Shown here piece after piece: positions 38,440 to 59,155 of a DNA stretch of 64,000 bases; positions within the stretch are counted from its first letter, which is position 1, and each line of letters opens with the position of its first letter. Location: contig JAPPGF010000006.1 of the NCBI GenBank assembly GCA_028875075.1, positions 62,001 to 126,000 of the forward strand, given 5' to 3'. The stretch is from Gemmatimonadota bacterium (GTDB lineage: Bacteria; Gemmatimonadota; Gemmatimonadetes; Longimicrobiales; Gaopeijiaceae). The notes beneath the pieces were generated by a model. The model ran no database searches and was not told where the DNA came from. It saw nothing but the letters and a program-made list of their open reading frames with translations. A program made the position numbers and the translations under genes.

Positions 38440-39210
38440 TCAGCGCGACCGGGCCGCCTCCACGATGTCCGCGAACTGATCGGCATCCAGACTGGCCCCT
38501 CCGACCAACAAGCCGTCCACGTCGTCCGCGGCCATCAGCGCGCGCGCGTTCGCCGGCTTGACGCTCCCTCCGTAGAGGATCGACACGTCGGCGGCGGCCG
38601 CGCCCAACCGCTCCCGGAGCCGCCCGCGCAGCGTGCCGTGCGCGGCCTCGACATCCGCCGGCGTCGCGGTTCGGCCGGTGTTGATCGCCCAGACGGGCTC
38701 GTACGCAATCAGAAAGTCGGCCCGGGCGCCGGGGAGCTCCTCAAGAGCCCGGTCGAGCTGACGCAGGACCACCTCCTCGACCCGCCCCGCCTCTCGCTCC
38801 CGGAGGGTCTCTCCCACGCAGAGCAGCGGCACGAGCCCGTGCCTGAGCGCGGCCGCCATCTTGCGGGCCACGTCGGCATCCGACTCCCCGAACAGGTGGC
38901 GTCGCTCCGAGTGGCCGACCAGGGCGTGGCTCGCACCCGCACCGCGGGCGATGGGTGCCGAGATCTCGCCCGTGAACGCCCCCTTATCCTCCCAGTGGAT
39001 GTTCTGCACGCCGATCGACACGCCGGGGGGCCGGGCGGCGACCGCCGCGGCGAGCGAGGCCGCCGGGGGGAAGACGAGCACGCGCGGGCCTCCCTCCGCG
39101 GTCGAGGCGCGGAACTCGCGGAAGAACGAGCCGGTCGCCGGCGGGTCCTTGTGCATCTTCCAGTTGGCCGCCACCACGACCGGCGGCCGGCGGCCGCTGC
39201 CCCCGCTCAC
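38440..39210 (-). CDS. tpiA: Triosephosphate isomerase
   Basis: TpiA interconverts dihydroxyacetone phosphate and glyceraldehyde 3-phosphate. The 256-residue protein has all key motifs: NWKMHK (Lys), HALVGHSERR (His), IAYEPVWAI (Glu) and ILYGGSVKP. Its GTG start shares four bases with the pgk stop (GTGA), so pgk-tpiA is coupled. Confidence 0.97.
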   Translation of the reverse strand: MSGGSGRRPPVVVAANWKMHKDPPATGSFFREFRASTAEGGPRVLVFPPAASLAAAVAARPPGVSIGVQNIHWEDKGAFTGEISAPIARGAGASHALVGHSERRHLFGESDADVARKMAAALRHGLVPLLCVGETLREREAGRVEEVVLRQLDRALEELPGARADFLIAYEPVWAINTGRTATPADVEAAHGTLRGRLRERLGAAAADVSILYGGSVKPANARALMAADDVDGLLVGGASLDADQFADIVEAARSR

Positions 39211-40412
39211 CGCTCACTCAGCGCGGCAATGCCCGGCAGGGCGGCGCCGGCCAAGAACTCCAGCGATGCGCCGCCTCCGGTCGAGACATGACTCAGCTTC
39301 GACGTCACTCCCGCCACCTCCGATGCCGCGACCGAATCCCCCCCGCCCACGACCGTGAGCGTGCCCGTCTCCGTCGCGTCGCCCACCGCCTTCGCGACGG
39401 TCACCGTGCCCTGGTGGAACGGCGGCCGCTCGAAGACCCCCATCGGTCCGTTCCACAGGATCGTTCGGGCGGCCTTGATCTCTGCCGCGAACACGGAGCG
39501 CGACACCGGGCCGATGTCACCGATGCGGTCGCCTCCCCGCACGGCGTCACGCGGGACGACGCGCTCCCGGGCGCCCGCCTCGAGGCGCTCAGCCACCACA
39601 CAGTCCACGGGCAGAAGGAGTCGCTCGCCAGCGGCTTCCAGACACGTGCGGGCCATCTCCACCCGGTCGGGCTCCGCGAGCGACCGGCCTATGTCGAGCC
39701 CGAGCGCGCAAAAGAACGTATTGGCCATCGCGCCGCCGACGAGGAGGCGGTCGACTCGGGACAGGAGGCTCCGGATCACGTCGATCTTGCCCGAGATCTT
39801 GGCCCCGCCCAAGATCGCGACGAAGGGTCGCTCGGGCTCTCCCGCAATGCGCTCCAGGAAGTCCAGCTCCTTCTCCATCAGGATTCCGGCGACCGCCCGT
39901 CCCCCGCGCACCCGCACCTGCTCGGCCACCCCGACCGTGGAGGCATGCACCCGGTGTGCGGCCCCGAACGCGTCGTTGACGAAGATCTCGCCGAGCTCGG
40001 CGAGCGCGCTCGCGAGGGAGGCGTCGTTTCGCGTCTCCCGGGGATCGAAGCGCGTGTTCTCCAGCGCGAGAACCTCTCCGGGGCCCAGCTGTTGAGCCGC
40101 GCTCCTCGCGCGCGGGCCGACGAGGCCGTCGTGGAAACGCACCCCGCCTCCGAGGAGTTCGCGCAGCCGGTCGATCACGGGCCTGAGGGAATAGCGTGCT
40201 TCGCGGCGGCCACCGGGCCGGCCCATGTGCGAAATCGCCACGATTCGCGCACCGGCGTCACGCAGGAGCCGCACGGTCGGAAGCGTCTGGCGGATGCGCG
40301 TGTCGTCGACGACTCGCTGTCCTTCGAGCGGCGTGTTGAGATCGGCGCGGAGCAGGACCGGGAGACCGCTCAGGTCGGCCGCCTTCAGCTCGCGAACAGT
40401 CGCCTTGTCCAT
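39207..40412 (-). CDS. pgk: Phosphoglycerate kinase
   Basis: Pgk makes ATP from 1,3-bisphosphoglycerate. The 401-residue protein has LLRADLNTPLEG, SHMGRPGGRREARYSL, ENTRFDPRET, AILGGAKISGKI, WNGPMGVFE and the C-terminal GGGDSVAA...VSTGGGASLEFL. ATG 40412 follows a near-consensus promoter by only 9 bases and has no Shine-Dalgarno, so translation may begin on a leaderless mRNA. gap is about 6 kb away, not in the same operon. Confidence 0.97.
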   Translation of the reverse strand: MDKATVRELKAADLSGLPVLLRADLNTPLEGQRVVDDTRIRQTLPTVRLLRDAGARIVAISHMGRPGGRREARYSLRPVIDRLRELLGGGVRFHDGLVGPRARSAAQQLGPGEVLALENTRFDPRETRNDASLASALAELGEIFVNDAFGAAHRVHASTVGVAEQVRVRGGRAVAGILMEKELDFLERIAGEPERPFVAILGGAKISGKIDVIRSLLSRVDRLLVGGAMANTFFCALGLDIGRSLAEPDRVEMARTCLEAAGERLLLPVDCVVAERLEAGARERVVPRDAVRGGDRIGDIGPVSRSVFAAEIKAARTILWNGPMGVFERPPFHQGTVTVAKAVGDATETGTLTVVGGGDSVAASEVAGVTSKLSHVSTGGGASLEFLAGAALPGIAALSER

Positions 40413-40703: not shown

Positions 40704-41867
40704 CTACCGCTCGGGATCTTCGGAGGCGGCGAGGTTGAGGGCGTCGAGCACGTCCTGCCATGACACGAGCTTGAAGTTCTGGTTGACCCGCGCGCCCTGG
40801 GCCTCGTTGATCCCATCCTGGACGACGAGCAGGCCCATCGGATAGCGCGGACCGACCGGAGCCGATACCGCCTGCAGGCCGTCGGTTTCCTCGACGCCGT
40901 CGACCGCCCCTGCCTCGCCCACGCGGAACGTTCCCCGGTAGGCGTGCGGCGGCGCGCGGTCGTAGACGACGTACGTGTTGTTGCCCTGGCTCGACGCCAC
41001 GAGGAACCCGTCGTCGGGACCGCCCACGCGCGGGACGTAGATCGACAGGCCCTCGACGCTCGACGCCAGGCGTCCGCCCTCCGGCTCACCCACGCCGACC
41101 CGATCAACCGCGACCCGCTCCCCGGGCGGCGCGTCCGGCTCTGCGCCGTAGCGCCAGATGCCGACCTCTTCCTCGCCGATGAACATCCACCCGTTGGCGT
41201 CGTCGGCAACGCACCCCTCGGTCTGGCTTCCGACCGCCCACGACCGCACGCGCGTCCCCGACATACCGGAGCCGTCGTCATCCAGGCGCCACTGCTCCAC
41301 GGCGCCGTCCAGGTCGTTGGCGAACACGTACAAGTCGCCGCTCACGGCGCTGCGGTACAGGCAGAGACCGTAGGGCTCCTCGTCGAGGCTCGGCGACAGG
41401 GGGGGGTCGACCACCGGGGTGAGCTCCCCGCTCTCGGGATCGAGCACGAGGACATCTATCGTCTCGGTGGTCCGGTTGGTGGCCGCGACGACGATCTCCC
41501 GCTTGCCGCCCACGCTGACGCCGTCCCGGAGGTCGACGTTGTTGACACGGCCCACGTCGCTGGTCGAGACGACCGCGCCGTCGAGCCCGTACACGACGAA
41601 GCCGCGCAGCTTGTTGGTCGCGACGATCAGGCTCGCCTCCGGGTCCGCCTCGTTGACCCAGACGGCGGGATCGTCCGCCGCATCGCAGGCGTCGAGGACC
41701 GGCGCCGTCTCCGCCGCCGCCGGGACGGTGCGCGTGTCGGCCGGCTGCGGCCCCGGCTCGCCGCTCAGCAGGTCCGTCAGCGCGCACCGGATCATCGTGC
41801 CCGGATTGCACCCGACAACCGCCACGGACCAGCAAGCCAGAACCGCCGCAAGCCTGTGAGTCTTCAT
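40704..41867 (-). CDS. Beta-propeller 3-phytase lipoprotein
   Basis: The 387-residue protein starts MKTHRLAAVLACWSVAVVGC, a lipoprotein signal with the lipobox ending in Cys20, so it is membrane-anchored outside the cytoplasm. The body is a beta-propeller phytase: DDPAVWVNEADPEASLIVAT, EGCVADDANGWMFIGEEEVGIWRY, SVEGLSIY and VVQDGIN...NQNFKLVSW match the family and carry its Ca2+- and phosphate-binding acids. It would release phosphate from phytate. ATG 41867 has AAGGA upstream. Together with the PhoX-like protein it suggests scavenging of organic phosphate. Confidence 0.88.
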   Translation of the reverse strand: MKTHRLAAVLACWSVAVVGCNPGTMIRCALTDLLSGEPGPQPADTRTVPAAAETAPVLDACDAADDPAVWVNEADPEASLIVATNKLRGFVVYGLDGAVVSTSDVGRVNNVDLRDGVSVGGKREIVVAATNRTTETIDVLVLDPESGELTPVVDPPLSPSLDEEPYGLCLYRSAVSGDLYVFANDLDGAVEQWRLDDDGSGMSGTRVRSWAVGSQTEGCVADDANGWMFIGEEEVGIWRYGAEPDAPPGERVAVDRVGVGEPEGGRLASSVEGLSIYVPRVGGPDDGFLVASSQGNNTYVVYDRAPPHAYRGTFRVGEAGAVDGVEETDGLQAVSAPVGPRYPMGLLVVQDGINEAQGARVNQNFKLVSWQDVLDALNLAASEDPER

Positions 41868-41938: not shown

Positions 41939-42577
41939 CTAGTCCGTGTCGACCAGCAACGCCTCCATCTGTTCTTGGGCGGCCTCATGCAGCTGGTCGA
42001 GCAGCAGGACTCGGCCGTTGAGGCGGTGCAGCTCGTCCTTGATGTCCAGCGGGTGCGCGTCCAGCCGGTCCAGGATCGGGCTCAGTGCGTCCAAGCACTG
42101 CTCGCGCGCCCGTCCGTAGCTGTCCAGAATCTCGTAGGCCCGCGAGACGCGGATGACCCAGTTGTAGTCGAAGATCGCCGCAGCCTGACTCGCCTGTGCC
42201 GTCCGCCAGGCGGCCGAAGAGATTTCCGGGAGAGCGAACGAGAGGTCGAGTCCCCTCCCGCCGGGTGCGGTGTCGACGCCACTCGCGGCCTCCCGCTGGA
42301 CTCGTGCGATTCGCTCCAGCAGGGCTCGCAATGACGTCCGTGTCGCTCGGAACTCCTCCAGATTCGTCTCGACTTCCAGCTCGACGGCAGCCCTCGCCAT
42401 GTCGGCGAACCGTCGAAGCTGCCGTTCCTCCCGCCACGCCTCGACGCTGAACGCTGCGAGGACCGCGAAGACCACCATGGCGGCCTCGGTCGCAATCCTG
42501 GCGACGTCCCCGCGGATCCGTGCACCGCCGAGTGCCGTCACAGCGCGGCGCAGTATCCCCCTACGTCCCACGGCCAC
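41939..42577 (-). CDS. Single-pass membrane protein of unknown function
   Basis: I do not recognise this 212-residue protein. It has a basic N-terminus, one hydrophobic segment at about 30-46 (TEAAMVVFAVLAAFSVEAW) followed by charged REER, then a long helical region with probable coiled-coil character, and no Cys-rich or catalytic motif. The pattern FAVLAAFSVEAWREER recurs in uncharacterised proteins as I recall. GTG 42577 is used; GTG 42571 (third codon) lies 7 bases after a TACCGT -10-like hexamer. It sits between the phytase and the sigma/TonB-GWxTD genes. Confidence 0.6.
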   Translation of the reverse strand: MAVGRRGILRRAVTALGGARIRGDVARIATEAAMVVFAVLAAFSVEAWREERQLRRFADMARAAVELEVETNLEEFRATRTSLRALLERIARVQREAASGVDTAPGGRGLDLSFALPEISSAAWRTAQASQAAAIFDYNWVIRVSRAYEILDSYGRAREQCLDALSPILDRLDAHPLDIKDELHRLNGRVLLLDQLHEAAQEQMEALLVDTD

Positions 42578-42865: not shown

Positions 42866-45205
42866 CTAGGGCACGGAGAAACGTGCTGCCGCGGCCCGGC
42901 CGAGAGCGGGATTGAAGACCTCGAGCGCGAGCTCGGTCGCGTCCTCGTCGGCCTCCACCTGCACCACCACGTCTTCATGCGGCGGGATCCGGACCCGCCG
43001 CTGGGCGACGCGCTCGCCGGACCGATCGAGTTGCACGAGAACGAGCACCAGCACATCGCCGCCCGAGATCAGTGCTTCGGGAACGCGCGTGGCCACCTCG
43101 ATCGCCGCCTTCCCCGCGCCCGGGTCCAGCGATCGCACGTCGGCCGGCAGCGGGTCCACGACGCGGCCGCCGGTCCCGCCGTCGTGCGGTCGCGTCGCGC
43201 GGAGATCGCTCAGATACGCGCGGCCCTCGGGAGTGAGCTCGCGCGCCGCCGCGCTCGCGGCACGGCGCAGCGTGAACGCCGGACCCTGCCCGTACTCCCA
43301 CAGTTCCGTGCGCAACTCGGTGCCCTCCCCGACCGCGCGCACGACAAGCGGCTTACCGTAGCGAACCCACAGACCTCCGGCGTCCGTCGCGCCCCCGCCC
43401 AGACGCAGGTGGGCATAGACGGCACGCGCCAGGTGCGTGACGAAGCGCTCGTTCACCGCCGTGGACACGAGCGGGTCGAGCGGCACCCAGAAGCGCTCCT
43501 CGGCGTGCTCCCGGTCCTCGCGCTCCAGGGACCAAAAGAGCTCCGCCGTGCCGGGCGCCAAGAGCGGACGGACATCGCGGATGCGAGCCGCCTCTTCCTG
43601 GGTGAGGCCTTGGAGTCCCGCCTCCAGCTCGCTGAGCGCGTCCTCGCTGCGGCCAATCCGTTCGAGGGCCACGCCCGAGAGCAGGCGCGCGTACGGATGC
43701 CCCCCGGACACGTACGCGAATCGACGCGCCCTCTGCAGCAGCTGCCTGGGCTCGCCCCGCTCGGCCAGATCGAGCAGGAGTTCTACGTTGGCGCCCACGT
43801 GTCCCGGATCCGCAGCGAGCGCGGCGAGGAGGGACCGTCGCATGGCTTCGTGTTCCGCCCAGGCGGCGACGTCAGGCTCGAAGTGCGCCTCGAGTATCCG
43901 CTCAAGCTCGGCCGGACAGAGGTAGTTCCAGGCGATCAGCGTCGCCGCCGGCACGGCGTCGTCGATCCCCGGCAATCCCCGCCCCGCGAGTGGGGCGGCG
44001 CGCGGGCACGAGGCTCGCATCAGGGCCTCGGCCGGCACGCGACCGAGATTGGCGCGCACCCTCCAAGCCGCCTGCGCGGCCCTGCTCAATTCGTAGTGGA
44101 GCTCCGCCCTGAGCGCCGACGAAACGGGCGCCGCGCCGCTCTCCGCCACCTCGACGCCCCGCTCGAGAAGGACTCGCGCGTGCTCGGAGAGTCCCTGCTC
44201 TCCGGTGATACGCGCCAGCGCAAGCAGCGGCGCGGGGTTGTCCGCCCGGCGGTCGGCTGCGGCCTCCAGCGCCGCCGCGGCCTCCTCGCGCCACTCCGAC
44301 GGATCGAAGCCCGGCGGCGGCTCGCCCAGGATGATCCGCTCGGGGCCGCCCAGCCGTGCGACCAACGCCTCGTCAGCCAGCGCGCGTCCGAGGAGCGCGC
44401 TCGCTTCCTCGAGGGTGGACGCCGGGAACGCGGACGGGCTCGTCCAATCCGCCGGCGCGTCCGCCCTCGCGCTGCGACGCGAGCCCAGCTCGCCCGCGAG
44501 CCTGGGCCTGGCGCGGTCCTCGGGCGAGAAGACGAGATCGAACTCCACCCAGGTCGACACCGGGCGACCCTCGCGGAGCGCCGGCCGGAACTCAAGCCGT
44601 GACGCTGCCACGAGCGCGGCGCGGTCCATCTCGGGATGTCCCGAGCCCTGCCGCACCTGGACGTCCCCGACCGTACCGACCGAATCGACCCACACGAGCA
44701 CGTTCACGATCCCGCCGACGCGCAGCTCCTGGAGCCGGGACGGGTAGTAGCGACGGATCATGCGCCGCTGGCTCTCCAGGTCGCGTACCCGCGGCGGGAT
44801 GGTCCGAACCGGTGCGGGAACCGGTGTCCGCCCTTCGACAGCGATCCGGGACGGAGCCGATTCGATGATCCGGGGCCCCTGCGGCACGGAACGGGGCGGC
44901 GCGACGGGCGCGGGCGCACTCGGCAGGGGCTGCGGCACCAGCCGGTGCATGAGCGCGACCAGGGCGGCGCGGGCCGGGAACGCCGCGCCCGCCGCCAACA
45001 GGAGGGCCACCGAGGCAGCCGCCGCGATCCGCCTCGTCCGGCGGCCCGGATCCGTAGCGGCTCCTGCGGCCTCGCTCCTCAACTCGGCTTCGAGCTCGGG
45101 TCCGAAGGAGGCCCGCTCCTCGATCCGGATCCCCTCGAGCTCCGCCTCTAGCCGAGCGAGCTCGGGCGCAGGCCGGGAGCGAATGTCTTCAATCCTATCC
45201 GTCAT
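42866..45205 (-). CDS. Membrane-anchored TonB-C / GWxTD-like protein
   Basis: This 779-residue protein has an acidic N-terminal segment of about 58 residues (ELARLEAELEGIRIEERASF), one transmembrane helix at about 60-76 preceded by RRTRR (N-terminus inside), a Pro-rich linker (about 92-140), a TonB C-terminal-like domain (about 148-228, with VQVRQGSGHPEMDRAALVA), a long helical repeat region, and a GWxTD-like domain (about 540-645, with TDAGGLWVRYGKP and ELWEYG). The C-terminus is beta-rich. ATG 45205 follows the ECF sigma stop by 10 bases. The layout suggests a sigma-interacting tail inside and sensor domains outside, but this is inference. Confidence 0.75.
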   Translation of the reverse strand: MTDRIEDIRSRPAPELARLEAELEGIRIEERASFGPELEAELRSEAAGAATDPGRRTRRIAAAASVALLLAAGAAFPARAALVALMHRLVPQPLPSAPAPVAPPRSVPQGPRIIESAPSRIAVEGRTPVPAPVRTIPPRVRDLESQRRMIRRYYPSRLQELRVGGIVNVLVWVDSVGTVGDVQVRQGSGHPEMDRAALVAASRLEFRPALREGRPVSTWVEFDLVFSPEDRARPRLAGELGSRRSARADAPADWTSPSAFPASTLEEASALLGRALADEALVARLGGPERIILGEPPPGFDPSEWREEAAAALEAAADRRADNPAPLLALARITGEQGLSEHARVLLERGVEVAESGAAPVSSALRAELHYELSRAAQAAWRVRANLGRVPAEALMRASCPRAAPLAGRGLPGIDDAVPAATLIAWNYLCPAELERILEAHFEPDVAAWAEHEAMRRSLLAALAADPGHVGANVELLLDLAERGEPRQLLQRARRFAYVSGGHPYARLLSGVALERIGRSEDALSELEAGLQGLTQEEAARIRDVRPLLAPGTAELFWSLEREDREHAEERFWVPLDPLVSTAVNERFVTHLARAVYAHLRLGGGATDAGGLWVRYGKPLVVRAVGEGTELRTELWEYGQGPAFTLRRAASAAARELTPEGRAYLSDLRATRPHDGGTGGRVVDPLPADVRSLDPGAGKAAIEVATRVPEALISGGDVLVLVLVQLDRSGERVAQRRVRIPPHEDVVVQVEADEDATELALEVFNPALGRAAAARFSVP

Positions 45206-45215
45206 CGATTCGTCT

Positions 45216-45866
45216 CTATTCCCGTATGTCGATCGCCTGCCTGAGACGCTTGAGCGCCCGGTGGAGGCGGACGGCAACCGCGTTGGGGCTGATCTTCAGG
45301 TTCGCGCCGATCTCGGTGTTGTCCAGACCGGCGCCGTAGCGTAACGCGAGGATCTCCTGGTCGGCCGCACGCAGGGACCTACTGCCGTTCAGGAGCGCCT
45401 CGATCCGCTCCTCGCGCAGCAGCCGCTCCTCCTGGCTCGGAACGTCCGCCACCAGATCGGGGACCCGGTCGAGCGTCACGTGGAGGGAGGCCCGGCGCCT
45501 GAGGGCGCGCAGATGATCCGCGACCGCGTTGTGTGCGATGCGCAGCAGCCAGGTGCGCGGCGAAGCGCGCGAGGCGTCGTAGCGGGCAAGCGAGCGCAAC
45601 GCCTTCAAGAAGACGTCCGACGTGACGTCCTCGGCCGCCTCCCGCGTGGCGACCCGAAAGCGCACGTAGCGATAGACGGACGCGCGATGTTCGTGGTACC
45701 ACCGCTCGAATGCAGCGGGAAGGTCGCGCGCCCGCGCGCCCGGCTCGGGCGACTTCCCCGTCGCCGCCTTCCGCCGGAGCGCCGAAGGCGTCACCGGACG
45801 CGGCACGGGATCGACTTCGCGAACCGGAGCGGCTCGGACGGACTCGGGATGTGTGTCCATGCGCAT
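45216..45866 (-). CDS. ECF RNA polymerase sigma factor
   Basis: The 216-residue protein has sigma region 2 (AFERWYHEHRASVYRYVRFR and EDVTSDVFLKALRSL, about 52-115) and region 4 (ALRYGAGLDNTEIGANLKIS, about 165-212). The first 48 residues are a charged, Pro-rich extension. No zinc anti-sigma gene follows; the next gene is the membrane TonB/GWxTD protein, which may take that role. ATG 45866 is used; ATG two codons later is possible. Confidence 0.92.
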   Translation of the reverse strand: MRMDTHPESVRAAPVREVDPVPRPVTPSALRRKAATGKSPEPGARARDLPAAFERWYHEHRASVYRYVRFRVATREAAEDVTSDVFLKALRSLARYDASRASPRTWLLRIAHNAVADHLRALRRRASLHVTLDRVPDLVADVPSQEERLLREERIEALLNGSRSLRAADQEILALRYGAGLDNTEIGANLKISPNAVAVRLHRALKRLRQAIDIRE

Positions 45867-45912
45867 TACCCTGGATTACGCGCGCTCACATCCGGGCCTT
45901 ACCGTTCTACAC

Positions 45913-46212
45913 CTACCGGAGCGGGCGGGGAGCCGAACGGCTATGGGTCGCCTGGGGGCCGAACCGACTCGCCCGCTCGGCCGGCTCAGAGCGTCGGGCG
46001 CGCTCGCCCGAGAGCCGGGCCTGGGCCACCCTGGCATCCGCGAACTGCCGACGAGCCTGCATCCTGAGCTCCAAGGGCGTGTCACAGTAGCTGCACGCCA
46101 CCAGCACGGCATCCGGGCCGGCGAGCATCACGTCGTCGGTGTGGCTGCACACGGGACAGCGGTACGAGCGCCACGCGCTCGGATCGCCGCCCATGGTATC
46201 CATCGCTTCCAT
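45913..46212 (-). CDS. Small zinc-ribbon protein
   Basis: The 99-residue protein has a C-x2-C...C-x2-C ribbon (Cys19, 22, 40 and 43; YRCPVCSHTDDV and ACSYCDTPLEL) followed by an Arg/Ala-rich tail. The family and role are not recognised; such ribbons bind nucleic acid or protein. ATG 46212 has GGAG at 6 bases; ATG 46218 and 46203 are alternatives. It lies 32 bases after gap, on the same strand, and 46 bases before the ECF sigma. Confidence 0.6.
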   Translation of the reverse strand: MEAMDTMGGDPSAWRSYRCPVCSHTDDVMLAGPDAVLVACSYCDTPLELRMQARRQFADARVAQARLSGERARRSEPAERASRFGPQATHSRSAPRPLR

Positions 46213-46244
46213 TCTCATCTCCGGTGCGGGCGCAACCGCACGGA

Positions 46245-47270
46245 CTACGGCCGGGCCGACGCGGGCAGACGCGCGCTCACGTAGCGAACGAGGTCCACCA
46301 CACGGGCCGAGTATCCCCACTCGTTGTCGTACCATGAAAGCACCTTGACCAGCTGTCCGTCAATGACGCTGGTACTGGTCGCGTCCACTATCGAGCTCCT
46401 GGCGTCGCCGATGAAGTCGATCGACACCAAGGCTTCCTCGCTGACCCCGAGAATGCCGGCGAGCTCTCCAGCCGCCGCCGCCCGGAACGCGTCGTTGACC
46501 TCGTCGATGGTCGTCTCACGCTCGACCTCGCACACCAGGTCCACGATCGATACGTCAGGCGTCGGAACCCGGATCGCCATTCCGTCCAGCTTTCCCTCGA
46601 GCTCCGGGAGCACGAGGGACGTCGCGCGCGCCGCGCCGGTCGTGGTCGGGATCATGGAAACGGCGCCCGCCCGAGCGCGTCGCAAGTCCTTGTGCGGGAG
46701 ATCAAGGATGTTCTGGTCGTTCGTGTACGCGTGCACCGTCGTCATGAAGCCGTGGCTCAGGCCGAACCGCTCCATGAGGACCTTGGCCACCGGCGCGAGG
46801 CAGTTGGTCGTGCAACTCGCGTTCGAGATCACGTCGTGGCACTCGGCGTCGTACATGTCCTCGTTGACTCCGAGCACGACGGTCACGTCCTCGCCCTTGG
46901 CCGGAGCGGTGATGACCACCTTGCGCGCGCCCGCCTCGAGATGCTGGCTCGCCTTCTCGCGCCGCGTGAAGAGCCCGGTGGATTCCACGACGACGTCCAC
47001 CTCGAGATCGCGCCACGGCAGCCGGGCGGGATCACGTTCGGCGAGCACCTCGATCTCGTCGCCGTCCACGCTGATCCCGGCATCCACGACGCGAACCTCG
47101 CCCGGGTAGCGGCCGTGGACCGAGTCGTAGCGCAGCAGATGGGCCAGCGTGGCGCTGTCGGCGAGATCGTTGATCGCCACTACGTCCAGCTCGGCGCCGG
47201 ACTGCTTGGCATAGCGGAGAACGTTGCGGCCGATGCGGCCGAACCCGTTGATGGCGACACGCGCAGACAT
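46245..47270 (-). CDS. gap: Glyceraldehyde-3-phosphate dehydrogenase
   Basis: Gap oxidises glyceraldehyde 3-phosphate in glycolysis. The 341-residue protein has [13 protein letters not shown], the catalytic Cys in [12 protein letters not shown], the His in [12 protein letters not shown], and [16 protein letters not shown] after strand 2 has the Asp typical of NAD+ rather than NADP+ enzymes. ATG 47270 has GGAG at 8 bases. No sigma-70 promoter was recognised upstream; a GGAAC...GTT pair is described separately. Confidence 0.97.
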
Positions 47271-55799: not shown

Positions 55800-57659
55800 C
55801 TAGTCAAACAGCGTCCAGCGAATGCCGTAGATGCTCCTGGTGAGCGGGAGGCCGCGCCCCGGGAAATCCCGGTTGTTCCTGCGGATCGTGAAGTTGTCCC
55901 AGGCCACGAAGAGCCGGAACGTCTGGACGCGCACCTGTATGAATGCGAACCAACTCTGGTAGAATGGCGCGGTCGCGAGGCTGCCCGCGGCGCCGGGCTC
56001 CTCGACCGGCACGGGCATCGGATCCCTCCCTTCGGCGCCGATCGTGGCCCAGATCTCCAGGTTGCCGCTGGGATAGAAGACGTCGTGGAAGGTGATGGCG
56101 GCCTGGTAGCTGCGCCTTGGCAGGTAGCGGGCAGGCTCGTCCCAGAGCGTCAGCGCGCCGGTGAGGGCGAAGCCGTCAGAGACGAAAGGGACCCTGGTGC
56201 GCGCGAAGAGCTCCAACCCCGTCCGCTCGATCCCGTCCAGGACGGCCCCCTCGCGGTCCATCGGCAGCCCGAGCACAGGGAGGCTGTCCGTCTCGAGGCT
56301 CACGCGCGCGGCAGCCAGCTCGACGCCCGCCCACTGGAAGCGCGCCCCCCAGCGAGTCGCGCGACGCTCATGGAAGCGGAGCGCGGCCGGACTCGGAGGC
56401 GGCTCGACGTCGGGCGGCGCGGCCGGATCCGGAGACTCGGGGGGCAGCGGATAGAGCGGCGCCCCCTTCGTGCCCTCCTCCCAATTGCCGAAGGCCGAGA
56501 GTCCGAGTACGGGACGAGTCCAGGCCCGGAGGCGCGAGAGCCCCACCCCCTCCCCGTCCCAGCGCTCCCGCGAGGTCTCGGCGTTCACGCCGCCCCAGCG
56601 CGGCAGTTCCGCGCTCACCGACAGGTCGCCCGAGACCGACGGCAGGTCCCCGCCACCGAACAGACGGAGCCCGGCGCTGGCTCGTACGGGTCCGTGGGCA
56701 AGGTCCGCGGCCAGCCCGTGTTGCCGCCGGGAGCGGTCGACAGGGAGCCGCTCCTCCCGCGCGAGTCCCTCCAGGCTCGAGGCGCCCGAGAATCCCTGGA
56801 CCACGAGCTGGGGCGCGGGCCGCCAGCGGGCGCGCACGACCCAGTCGACGCGACTGCCCTCCCCCGGGTATCCGTCGATCGCCGCCCCCGACCTCTTCCG
56901 GCGCCACTCCGCCGTGACCGCGAAGTCTTCGCCCCAGTGGCGCCTGTAGCGCAGCCACGCGCCCGTGCGCGTCGCCTCCTCCTGGTTGGGGCCGTCCGTG
57001 TCGACGCGGTCGAATGCCAGGGCGAGGCTCCCGCCCAGAGCCCGCGGGTGCAGGAACGTGGCGCGGAAGAAGTTCGTGTCGAGGTCGCCCGTCCCCGCTT
57101 CGACGAGGGAGGTGGGGCGAGGCTCTTCGCCGTCGCGCAGGCTCGTCAGCTCGATGCGGAGCTCTCCCGGATGGCGCTCGACGCGGACGCGCTCGACGCC
57201 CCCGAGCCCGATCCGGGAGAGGTCGGCGACCGAGCCATCCAGCGGGACGCGCTCGAATCCGTCCCAATAGACGCGCACGCCGCCGCCGCCGAGTCCGTAG
57301 GCCGTGAGGGCCTGCGGCGCCCCGTAGTCGCCGCCGCGCAGTCGCACCGCGCCGGGCACCTGGGCGAGCAGGTCGGCGAGCGAGAGGCCCCGCATCGCGA
57401 TCAGGTCCTCGCGCTCGAAGAGCCAGACCGCGGTGGCGAAGCCGACCGGAGCGCGACCGTCGAGTTCGGGCACCACGCTGACCGCCAACGAGTCGGGCAC
57501 CGAGTCGGCCGCGAGCGGGCCGGGTAGCGAATCCGGGGCGAGGACGGCGACGGTGTCGGGGAGCGCGAGCGTGTCCGCCGGGGGCTGCTGCGCAGCGGCG
57601 GCGGAGCGCAGAAAGGAGGCCGCGGCCAGACAGGCCGCGACCGCCCGGCCGAGTCTCAC
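55800..57659 (-). CDS. Plug-domain outer-membrane beta-barrel protein
   Basis: The 619-residue protein begins with a signal peptide (about 1-26, ending AAAAQQ), then an Ala/Asp/Pro-rich stretch, then a TonB-receptor plug-like domain (LADLLAQVPGAVRLRGGDYG, about 100-175). The rest is a series of alternating strands like a beta-barrel, ending in Trp-Thr-Leu-Phe-Asp, close to the aromatic end of outer-membrane proteins. No TonB box was identified. The ligand is unknown. GTG 57659 shares four bases with the pepA stop. Confidence 0.78.
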   Translation of the reverse strand: MRLGRAVAACLAAASFLRSAAAAQQPPADTLALPDTVAVLAPDSLPGPLAADSVPDSLAVSVVPELDGRAPVGFATAVWLFEREDLIAMRGLSLADLLAQVPGAVRLRGGDYGAPQALTAYGLGGGGVRVYWDGFERVPLDGSVADLSRIGLGGVERVRVERHPGELRIELTSLRDGEEPRPTSLVEAGTGDLDTNFFRATFLHPRALGGSLALAFDRVDTDGPNQEEATRTGAWLRYRRHWGEDFAVTAEWRRKRSGAAIDGYPGEGSRVDWVVRARWRPAPQLVVQGFSGASSLEGLAREERLPVDRSRRQHGLAADLAHGPVRASAGLRLFGGGDLPSVSGDLSVSAELPRWGGVNAETSRERWDGEGVGLSRLRAWTRPVLGLSAFGNWEEGTKGAPLYPLPPESPDPAAPPDVEPPPSPAALRFHERRATRWGARFQWAGVELAAARVSLETDSLPVLGLPMDREGAVLDGIERTGLELFARTRVPFVSDGFALTGALTLWDEPARYLPRRSYQAAITFHDVFYPSGNLEIWATIGAEGRDPMPVPVEEPGAAGSLATAPFYQSWFAFIQVRVQTFRLFVAWDNFTIRRNNRDFPGRGLPLTRSIYGIRWTLFD

Positions 57660-59155
57660 GCCACTCGGCCCCGAAGCCACTCCACCAGAAGCCTGACCGG
57701 TACGCCGTACGCGCCCTTGCGCTGATACGGCAACGGCTCGGTCCCGTAGGCCGTCCCCGCGATGTCCAGATGCGCCCACGGTACGTCCCCCGCGAACTCG
57801 CGCAGGAACCACGCGGCCGTGATGGTGCCCGCCTCGCGTCCGCCGACGTTCATCATGTCGGCCACCTCGCTCTTGAGCTGCTTCCTGTACTCGCTCCAAA
57901 GCGGCAGCGGCCAGCAGCGCTCGCCCGCGAGCTCGCCCGCGCCGAGCAGCGCCTGGACGAGCTCGTCGTCGGTGCCCAGCACGGCTGTCGCATGGCGGCC
58001 GAGCGCAACCACGACCGCGCCGGTCAACGTCGCCGCGTCGACGATCGCGGCGGCCCCCAGCTCCTTGGCATAGTCGAGCGCGTCGGCCAGGATCAGCCTG
58101 CCTTCGGCGTCCGTGTTGATCACCTCCACGGTCCTGCCGCCGCGCGTCTGGATCACGTCGCCCGGCTTGACCGCCTCCCCGGAGATGAGGTTCTCGGTGG
58201 AGGGGACGAGACCCACCACGTTCAGGGGGAGGTCGAGGTCGGCCGCGGCGCGGAGCGCCCCCATCACGGCCGCGCCGCCGGACATGTCGAACTTCATCTC
58301 CTCCATGCCGAGCGCCGGCTTGATCGAGATCCCCCCGGCGTCGAACGTGAGGCCCTTCCCCACGAGCGCCACCCAGGGCCCCTCCGTTCCGCCGCCCCGG
58401 TGACGCAGCACGATGAAGCGGGCCTCCTGCGCCGAGCCCTGATTGACGGCAAGCAGGGCGTGCATCCGCTCCTCGCGGATCCGCTCCATCCCGAGGACCT
58501 CGACCTCGAGGCCCACCTCGCGGGCCATCGATTCCGCCGCGACCCCGAGGTGCGCGGGCGTTGCGATGTTGCCGGGCCGCGACTGGAGGGTCCGCGCGAA
58601 GTTCTGGCCGTCGGCCAGGGCGCGACCGACCGCGAGGCCCGCCTCGGCGGCCGTGCGGTGCCCGGCCTCGATCACCAGATCGACGGCACTCACTCGGGTC
58701 CTGGGACCCGCGTCGGGCTCGAGCGCGGCGCTCCTCAGTTCCTCGAAACGCCACGCCGCCAGGAGCGCGCCTTCCGCCGTGGCCTGCACGGCGAGGGCAG
58801 CGTCCAGCCCGCCCGGGTGGACGACAATCGTGCAGGCCTCGAGTTCCCGTTCCTCGGCGGCCCGCACCGCGCGCGCCGCGAAGCGGCGAAGGGCCTCCGC
58901 GTTCCAATCCTCGCTCTTGCCGACGCCGATCAGGGCCACGCGGGCGGGACCCTCGGCCAGAGCGGTATGGACGACCACGACGTGGCCTGCGCGCCCGCGC
59001 ACGTCCCGGCGCGCAGGGCCGATCGCCTCCAGCAACGGCTCCGGAAGGGCCGCCCACGCGGTCCCGGGGTCGCTCTCGGAGACCGCCACCGCAAGCAGCT
59101 CGGCACAGTACCCGGCGGGCTCGTCGGAGCGCACCAGCCGGACGTCCACCGTCAC
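57656..59155 (-). CDS. pepA: Leucyl aminopeptidase (M17)
   Basis: PepA is a two-metal cytosolic aminopeptidase. The 499-residue protein has [16 protein letters not shown] (Lys and Asp), the family signature [10 protein letters not shown], and a C-terminal domain ending [16 protein letters not shown] 59155 shares four bases with the icd stop, so icd, pepA and the barrel gene are coupled in a chain. A second GTG two codons later is possible. Confidence 0.95.

Follow-up and report, generated by a model that had tools for sequence, protein, structure and literature searches.

What controls an ECF sigma factor whose gene has no zinc-type anti-sigma gene beside it? The question is raised by a BldN-like sigma gene in a 64,000-nucleotide stretch of Gemmatimonadota DNA (the window), which is followed by the gene of a large membrane protein with a TonB C-terminal domain (TonB_C). 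The original prediction, made from the DNA letters alone, was that this partner could be an anti-sigma factor and a sensor in one protein. Comparison with related genomes makes it likely that the two genes are an autoregulated cassette of ECF sigma factor and membrane anti-sigma factor, in which TonB_C monitors TonB-dependent receptors. Features of the locus are listed in Table 1.

Table 1. Features of the sigma-partner locus, in window coordinates, with the basis for each assignment.
Feature	Position	Strand	Basis
pgk, downstream flank in relatives	39207..40412	-	tblastn searches of the loci with pgk and tpi
Putative membrane anti-sigma/sensor (partner), 779 aa	42866..45205	-	Adjoins sigma in nearly all sigma-bearing genomes
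C-terminal beta domain, residues 683-777	42875..43159	-	AlphaFold2, pLDDT about 92-96 over most
GWxTD domain, residues 543-638	43292..43579	-	TIGR04514, 29.3 bits, cut-off 28
TPR-like helical array, residues 262-540	43586..44422	-	AlphaFold2 helices; Foldseek matches to TPR proteins
TonB C-terminal domain, residues 152-226	44528..44752	-	PF03544, E 1.3e-14; pLDDT >90
Juxtamembrane ARA, residues 78-80, in (V/F)PxARA(S/A)	44966..44974	-	Alignment A1, motif list
Transmembrane helix, residues ~57-75, arginines on cytoplasmic side	44981..45037	-	Hydropathy; AlphaFold2 helix 53-74
Candidate sigma-binding cytoplasmic segment, residues 12-49	45059..45172	-	Alignments A1/A4, AlphaFold2, phylum search
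ECF sigma factor, BldN-like, 216 aa	45216..45866	-	Pfam Sigma70_r2/r4_2
Predicted autoregulatory ECF promoter	45877..45903	-	GTAAS-N16/17-CGTA; about 10 nt 5' of sigma ATG
Small CxxC...CxxC zinc-ribbon ORF between gapA and sigma	45913-46335		
gapA (GAPDH), upstream flank of cassette	46245..47270	-	Pfam; conserved neighbour

The sigma has Sigma70 regions 2 and 4 only (Sigma70_r2, E 8e-17; Sigma70_r4_2, E 7e-9; Pfam) and no region 3, the composition of an ECF sigma factor. Its top NCBIfam model is TIGR02952, the BldN family, at 127 bits against a cut-off of 206; BldN is its nearest family, of which it is not a member by the curated cut-off. The top PDB sequence match is also a BldN structure (6dxo chain A, E 8e-22).

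The partner gene runs from an ATG at 45205, 10 bp past the sigma stop, to 42866, which is the gene layout originally described. The domains read from the sequence at that time (an acidic cytoplasmic tail, one membrane helix, a TonB-C domain, repeats and a GWxTD domain) were confirmed with Pfam, NCBIfam and AlphaFold2, the GWxTD domain weakly. Residues 1-52, on the cytoplasmic side, include 14 D/E and 7 K/R and zero Cys or His, and hydropathy indicates a single hydrophobic helix at about residues 59-80. The AlphaFold2 model (mean pLDDT 85, from an alignment of 35 sequences) predicts two helices, 14-25 and 35-49, in the candidate sigma-binding segment, a 38-residue motif of the form LPxELxxLDxELxxIxxEERpSFgPELxxEL. 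Beyond the membrane, a Pro-rich linker that is disordered in the model precedes the TonB_C domain, which scores 54.9 bits against a PF03544 gathering cut-off of 24.6. The GWxTD domain is a marginal member of TIGR04514, since its score lies close to the cut-off (Table 1); the GWxTD domain of a relative (locus L060) scores 39.7 bits. Past the membrane helix, the motif (V/F)PxARA(S/A), in which R79 is invariant across family f1 (alignment A1), is similar to a signal-peptidase site. Cleavage at this site is speculation; an anti-sigma factor known to be cut by signal peptidase is RsiV (a title among the references of PMC7406223).

The original prediction staked itself on two points, a cytoplasmic segment that is conserved and predicted to bind the sigma, and conservation of the pair. 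We surveyed 395 genomes of the phylum, searching for the partner with the 38-residue cytoplasmic motif only, from an alignment that took in five members of the more distant family f4. The motif is present in 50 genomes and the sigma in 49; 48 have both, one has the sigma alone and two have the motif alone (p about 1e-58 over the 395 genomes, by a statistic that ignores relatedness). The sole sigma-only genome has a truncated sigma, and the two motif-only genomes have marginal matches. Motif matches in G163 and G165 were partial and marginal and were left uncounted. The sigma occurs in 51 of 121 genomes of the host's family; the host genome, judged by its relatives, is a Gemmatimonadota MAG. 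Fifty sigma loci besides that of the window were studied, together with eight loci of family f4. Wherever the contig continues, the partner lies 3' of the sigma, usually with a gap of -14 to 37 bp; the one exception to adjacency is G187, in which sigma and partner are on separate contigs and neither adjoins the other. The pair is therefore conserved together in relatives almost without exception. It also decays together in one genus, g14, in which G015 (L057) has an in-frame TAG in the sigma and a TAA in the partner, and G091 (L086) has a truncated sigma and has lost the partner; this supports the linkage of the two genes. The partner gene adjoins the sigma gene and is conserved with it, as would be expected of a membrane anti-sigma factor that binds and inhibits the sigma.

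Within the partner, the most conserved residues of the entire protein are in the cytoplasmic segment, and L23, E30, R31, S33, F34, E37, L38 and L42 are invariant in 35 aligned partners. Distances between sigmas correlate better with those between segments (partial r 0.42) than with those between TonB_C domains (0.26), both corrected with gapA, a result of modest weight. Pairing and motif conservation together give good support to the reading as sigma and anti-sigma factor, with the segment as the putative sigma-binding part.

Anti-sigma domains have been described in three classes, ASDI, ASDII and ASDIII (PMC7406223, PMC8103513). We took class II, represented by CnrY, as a two-helix segment that wraps the sigma, its first helix lying on sigma4 and its second on sigma2, and class III, represented by RsbN, as a three-helix anti-sigma domain on a BldN-like sigma. 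The partner matches none of the anti-sigma models of Pfam or NCBIfam, zf-HC2/ZAS and FecR included; its cytoplasmic segment has no convincing Pfam match of any kind, and a FecR domain is absent at Pfam E values up to 1. The zinc anti-sigma motif HxxxCxxC is in no relative's cytoplasmic domain, again with no Pfam match. The closest zinc-type ORF is the small zinc ribbon between gapA and the sigma. ORFs like it lie behind gapA in L042, L043 and L046 and also in L133, a genome without the sigma; the ribbon was therefore rejected as the anti-sigma factor, and the observation that the sigma lacks a zinc-type anti-sigma neighbour stands.

The candidate segment would combine the two-helix form of class II with a sigma of the type bound by class III, and has a sequence match to neither. 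A possible explanation is that it is a highly diverged member of the RsbN class, which would make the system a relative of BldN-RsbN equipped with a new sensor. BldN is the best family and the best solved match of the sigma, and the promoter boxes described below are similar to those of BldN. The longer segment with the membrane helix also gives repeated weak matches to the curated 'anti-sigma factor' model NF052375; of 48 members, 10 match it, with E 0.0012 at best. These matches vanish once the helix is removed, the 38-residue motif alone matching no known anti-sigma model or structure, so we rejected them as evidence of homology. The segment also has no sequence match to the anti-sigma chains of PDB, and two helices are predicted against three in the BldN-RsbN complex (PMC7406223), RsbN being compared by its description. 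Membership in the RsbN class seems to us rather unlikely.

The periplasmic part of the partner is exchanged among relatives while the cytoplasmic segment stays constant. In family f1, partners with TonB_C, TPR and GWxTD modules have roughly 700-955 aa and partners with TonB_C alone roughly 250-280 aa; the partner in L076 has TPR and GWxTD without TonB_C, which indicates that TonB_C is inessential to the core function. In family f4, the cytoplasmic motif recurs in a single-pass protein, ahead of a domain with two CCxDxDGxGxxDDG motifs, and this partner adjoins a diverged BldN-like sigma. A profile built from f1 only gives 24, 19.5 and 14.5 bits on the three best f4 proteins, whereas 12,000 shuffles reached 9.8 bits at most; the remaining three f4 proteins score below this shuffle maximum. 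A fixed segment with a swapped periplasmic part is the usual pattern of anti-sigma factors. The f4 CCxDxDG domain has no Pfam family, and this sister system is possibly a metal or thiol sensor; an AlphaFold2 model of an f4 partner was discarded (pLDDT 45). The f4 genome G160 has a tandem duplication of the entire sigma and partner pair (L087:2579-5068).

The gene order in family f1 is gapA-sigma-partner-pgk-tpi, and genomes without the pair have gapA-pgk-tpi contiguous. Contiguity of gapA and pgk was found in 16 of 17 pair-less genomes tested, including one of the same genus. Because pgk directly follows gapA in pair-less genomes, the unit of gain or loss is exactly the sigma and its partner. 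Where the gap from partner to pgk is measurable, almost every relative has one of -3 to 150 bp. The window differs in that the partner is separated from pgk by a DUF gene and a phytase gene. At 40704-41867 and 41939-42577 lie the phytase (PF02333, E 5e-88) and a membrane protein of unknown kind; neither was found at the partner-pgk position in the relatives examined. Elsewhere in the window, a minus-strand ORF of 1085 codons (55800-59057) has no Pfam match at E 1e-8.

The window's predicted promoter has a -35 element GGTAAG (45903-45898), a 17-bp spacer and a -10 element CGTA (45880-45877). The pattern GTAAS-N16/17-CGTA occurs once in the window, just 5' of the sigma (45902-45877; expected 0.06). 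Of 59 sigma loci, 34 have GTAA(C/G)-N16/17-CGTA just 5' of the sigma start, compared with 0 of 10,999 background windows, and the element is absent around gapA and pgk in the pair-less genomes examined. Family f4 has the form GTGAC-N16-CGTA, which precedes six of eight sigmas and in L093 also a receptor gene. The consensus of BldN promoters is CGTAAC-N16-CGTTGA (PMC2375139), and boxes of this kind are in keeping with BldN as the nearest family and structure of the sigma. The natural reading of the conserved element is that the sigma is autoregulated from its own promoter. The motif has no genome-wide excess, which points either to a small regulon or to a true motif that is looser than this one.

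Part of that regulon may be genes of TonB-dependent receptors. A receptor gene lies 3' of the pair in f4 loci L088-L093 and 3' of the partner in G187 (L148). For the L093 and L091 receptors, plug and barrel were both verified with Pfam, and for the partial L148 receptor the plug; the remaining f4 receptors were called from similar N-termini. Away from the pair, we took matches to the strict pattern TGTAAC-N16/17-CGTA and counted those that lie at most 250 nt upstream of a SusC-like receptor. In f1 genomes with the pair, 12 of 59 matches are of this kind; genomes lacking the pair have 0 of 33 (p 0.003), and the pattern reversed, sought in the pair-bearing genomes, has 0 of 30. Set against both kinds of control (0 of 63 pooled), the difference has p about 0.004 with orthologs merged by eye. 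CarboxypepD_reg and Plug domains were found in all 10 receptors scanned of the 12 (Pfam). The receptor idea arose from the first 16 genomes, and a second batch was then analysed alone; it has 9 of 42 sites at receptors against 0 of 63 in controls, or 4 of 37 with orthologs merged by eye (p 0.017). Two matches of the first batch that precede M16 peptidase genes (L151, L155) were discarded: in our reading, the bases following each translate like a DNA glycosylase zinc finger, so that conservation of coding sequence accounts for the match. The genome of the window has no receptor-linked strict match; of its two strict matches, one falls within a coding frame and the other precedes the gene for a secreted protein that has two TonB_C-like domains. 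The latter is TGTAAC-N17-CGTA, about 140 nt before the gene (G000:C3:4845-4871, L003:2122-2148).

The receptor link could be a sampling effect, with the sigma mainly controlling its own operon and the pgk and tpi genes behind it. The closeness of pgk to the partner fits this, and several genomes have no strict promoter match other than that of the sigma. The difference between the 12 receptor sites and the empty controls speaks against it, as does the sister family, with its receptor gene 3' of the pair and the motif at the L093 receptor gene, and we regard this explanation as somewhat improbable.

The sign of control is a separate matter, which sequence data do not give. The partner might be a regulator of FecR type that the sigma requires for activity, in a pro-sigma or chaperone role, instead of a plain inhibitor; VreR both inhibits its own sigma and is needed by it (PMC2729926). 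The partner has no FecR-type domain in Pfam, and such a role appears doubtful. That neither gene occurs alone, save for the truncated sigma and the two marginal motifs, is compatible with both models. We consider it very improbable that the partner serves as an envelope protein, either a TonB-like energy transducer or an assembly factor, and is just co-transcribed with the sigma: TonB shares the layout of one helix, Pro-rich linker and TonB_C, and envelope proteins also carry GWxTD and TPR modules, but the cytoplasmic segment, which roles of this kind would not need, is conserved better than any other part, is present only with this sigma and stays constant while the periplasmic modules swap, and the S-x3-H motif of TonB energy transducers is absent from the partner's membrane helix, with a pattern match in 2 of 48 relatives.

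In the autoregulated cassette that we favour, the partner would be a single-pass membrane anti-sigma factor whose zinc-less, two-helix N-terminus of about 50 residues tethers the sigma at the membrane. This binding would be inhibitory. The sensor would be the periplasmic part, comprising the Pro-rich linker, TonB_C and, in the window's lineage, TPR and GWxTD modules, which may be added interaction modules. TonB_C probably engages TonB-dependent receptors in the manner of TonB, with the TonB box as its presumed ligand. Altered receptor engagement or load would change the anti-sigma factor or lead to its proteolytic cleavage, and so free the sigma. The freed sigma would transcribe its own operon from GTAAS-N16/17-CGTA, together with some receptor genes, and in many relatives transcription of the operon would continue into pgk-tpi. 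The suggestion that the partner listens to outer-membrane events gains indirect support from the receptor genes after the sister system and behind off-site promoter matches; the sensing step itself is part of the conditional model.

These findings suggest an undescribed route by which the state of outer-membrane nutrient receptors is reported to the cell. If the model is right, a sigma-binding domain without an existing model would join a main bacterial signalling family, and TonB_C fused to an anti-sigma factor would be a new sensor type. The model gives a testable answer to how receptor-rich bacteria without receptor signalling domains could sense receptor use, and the analysis supplies a promoter motif, together with named target genes, in a phylum that has received little study. 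More tentatively, the partners may be a new anti-sigma class, in which a built-in TonB_C reads receptor TonB boxes directly, with no FecR or receptor signalling domain, and a new two-helix module with several sensors serves an autoregulated BldN-like sigma that tunes receptor genes. In the literature available to us (mostly without subscription papers), we came across no account of a system that fuses TonB_C to an anti-sigma factor, no paper on GWxTD, and none on TonB with an anti-sigma factor in Gemmatimonadetes.

Several known systems share parts of this design. BldN-RsbN of Streptomyces (class III) is similar in having a sigma for which BldN is the closest relative, similar promoter boxes and spacing, and a membrane-anchored anti-sigma factor. 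It differs in that here two helices are predicted instead of three, the exterior has TonB_C, TPR and GWxTD, and the cytoplasmic segment has no detectable similarity to PDB anti-sigma chains. CnrY-CnrH (class II) shares the short two-helix cytoplasmic segment (CnrY as described in PMC7406223), but the segment here has no PDB-chain sequence match, the sigma has other relatives and the exterior is different. FecI-FecR-FecA resembles the cassette in its ECF sigma, its single-pass regulator and TonB-dependent receptors as probable input and output, and f4 has the same gene order of sigma, regulator and receptor. Unlike FecR, the regulator here has no FecR domain and has TonB_C (or CCxDxDG) instead, and the two f4 receptors scanned whole have plug and barrel only, with no N-terminal signalling domain (Pfam). 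In PUMA3 of Pseudomonas aeruginosa (VreA-VreI-VreR), a TonB/TolA C-terminal domain in an ECF/anti-sigma pathway is proposed to meet outer-membrane receptors (PMC2729926); there the domain is in a separate periplasmic protein, VreA, whereas here it is within the sigma's membrane partner. Dma proteins are also anti-sigma factors that join the outer membrane to a sigma (PMC13088901), but they span both membranes and are reported only in Bacteroidota (PMC13088901), whereas the Gemmatimonadota partner has one membrane helix.
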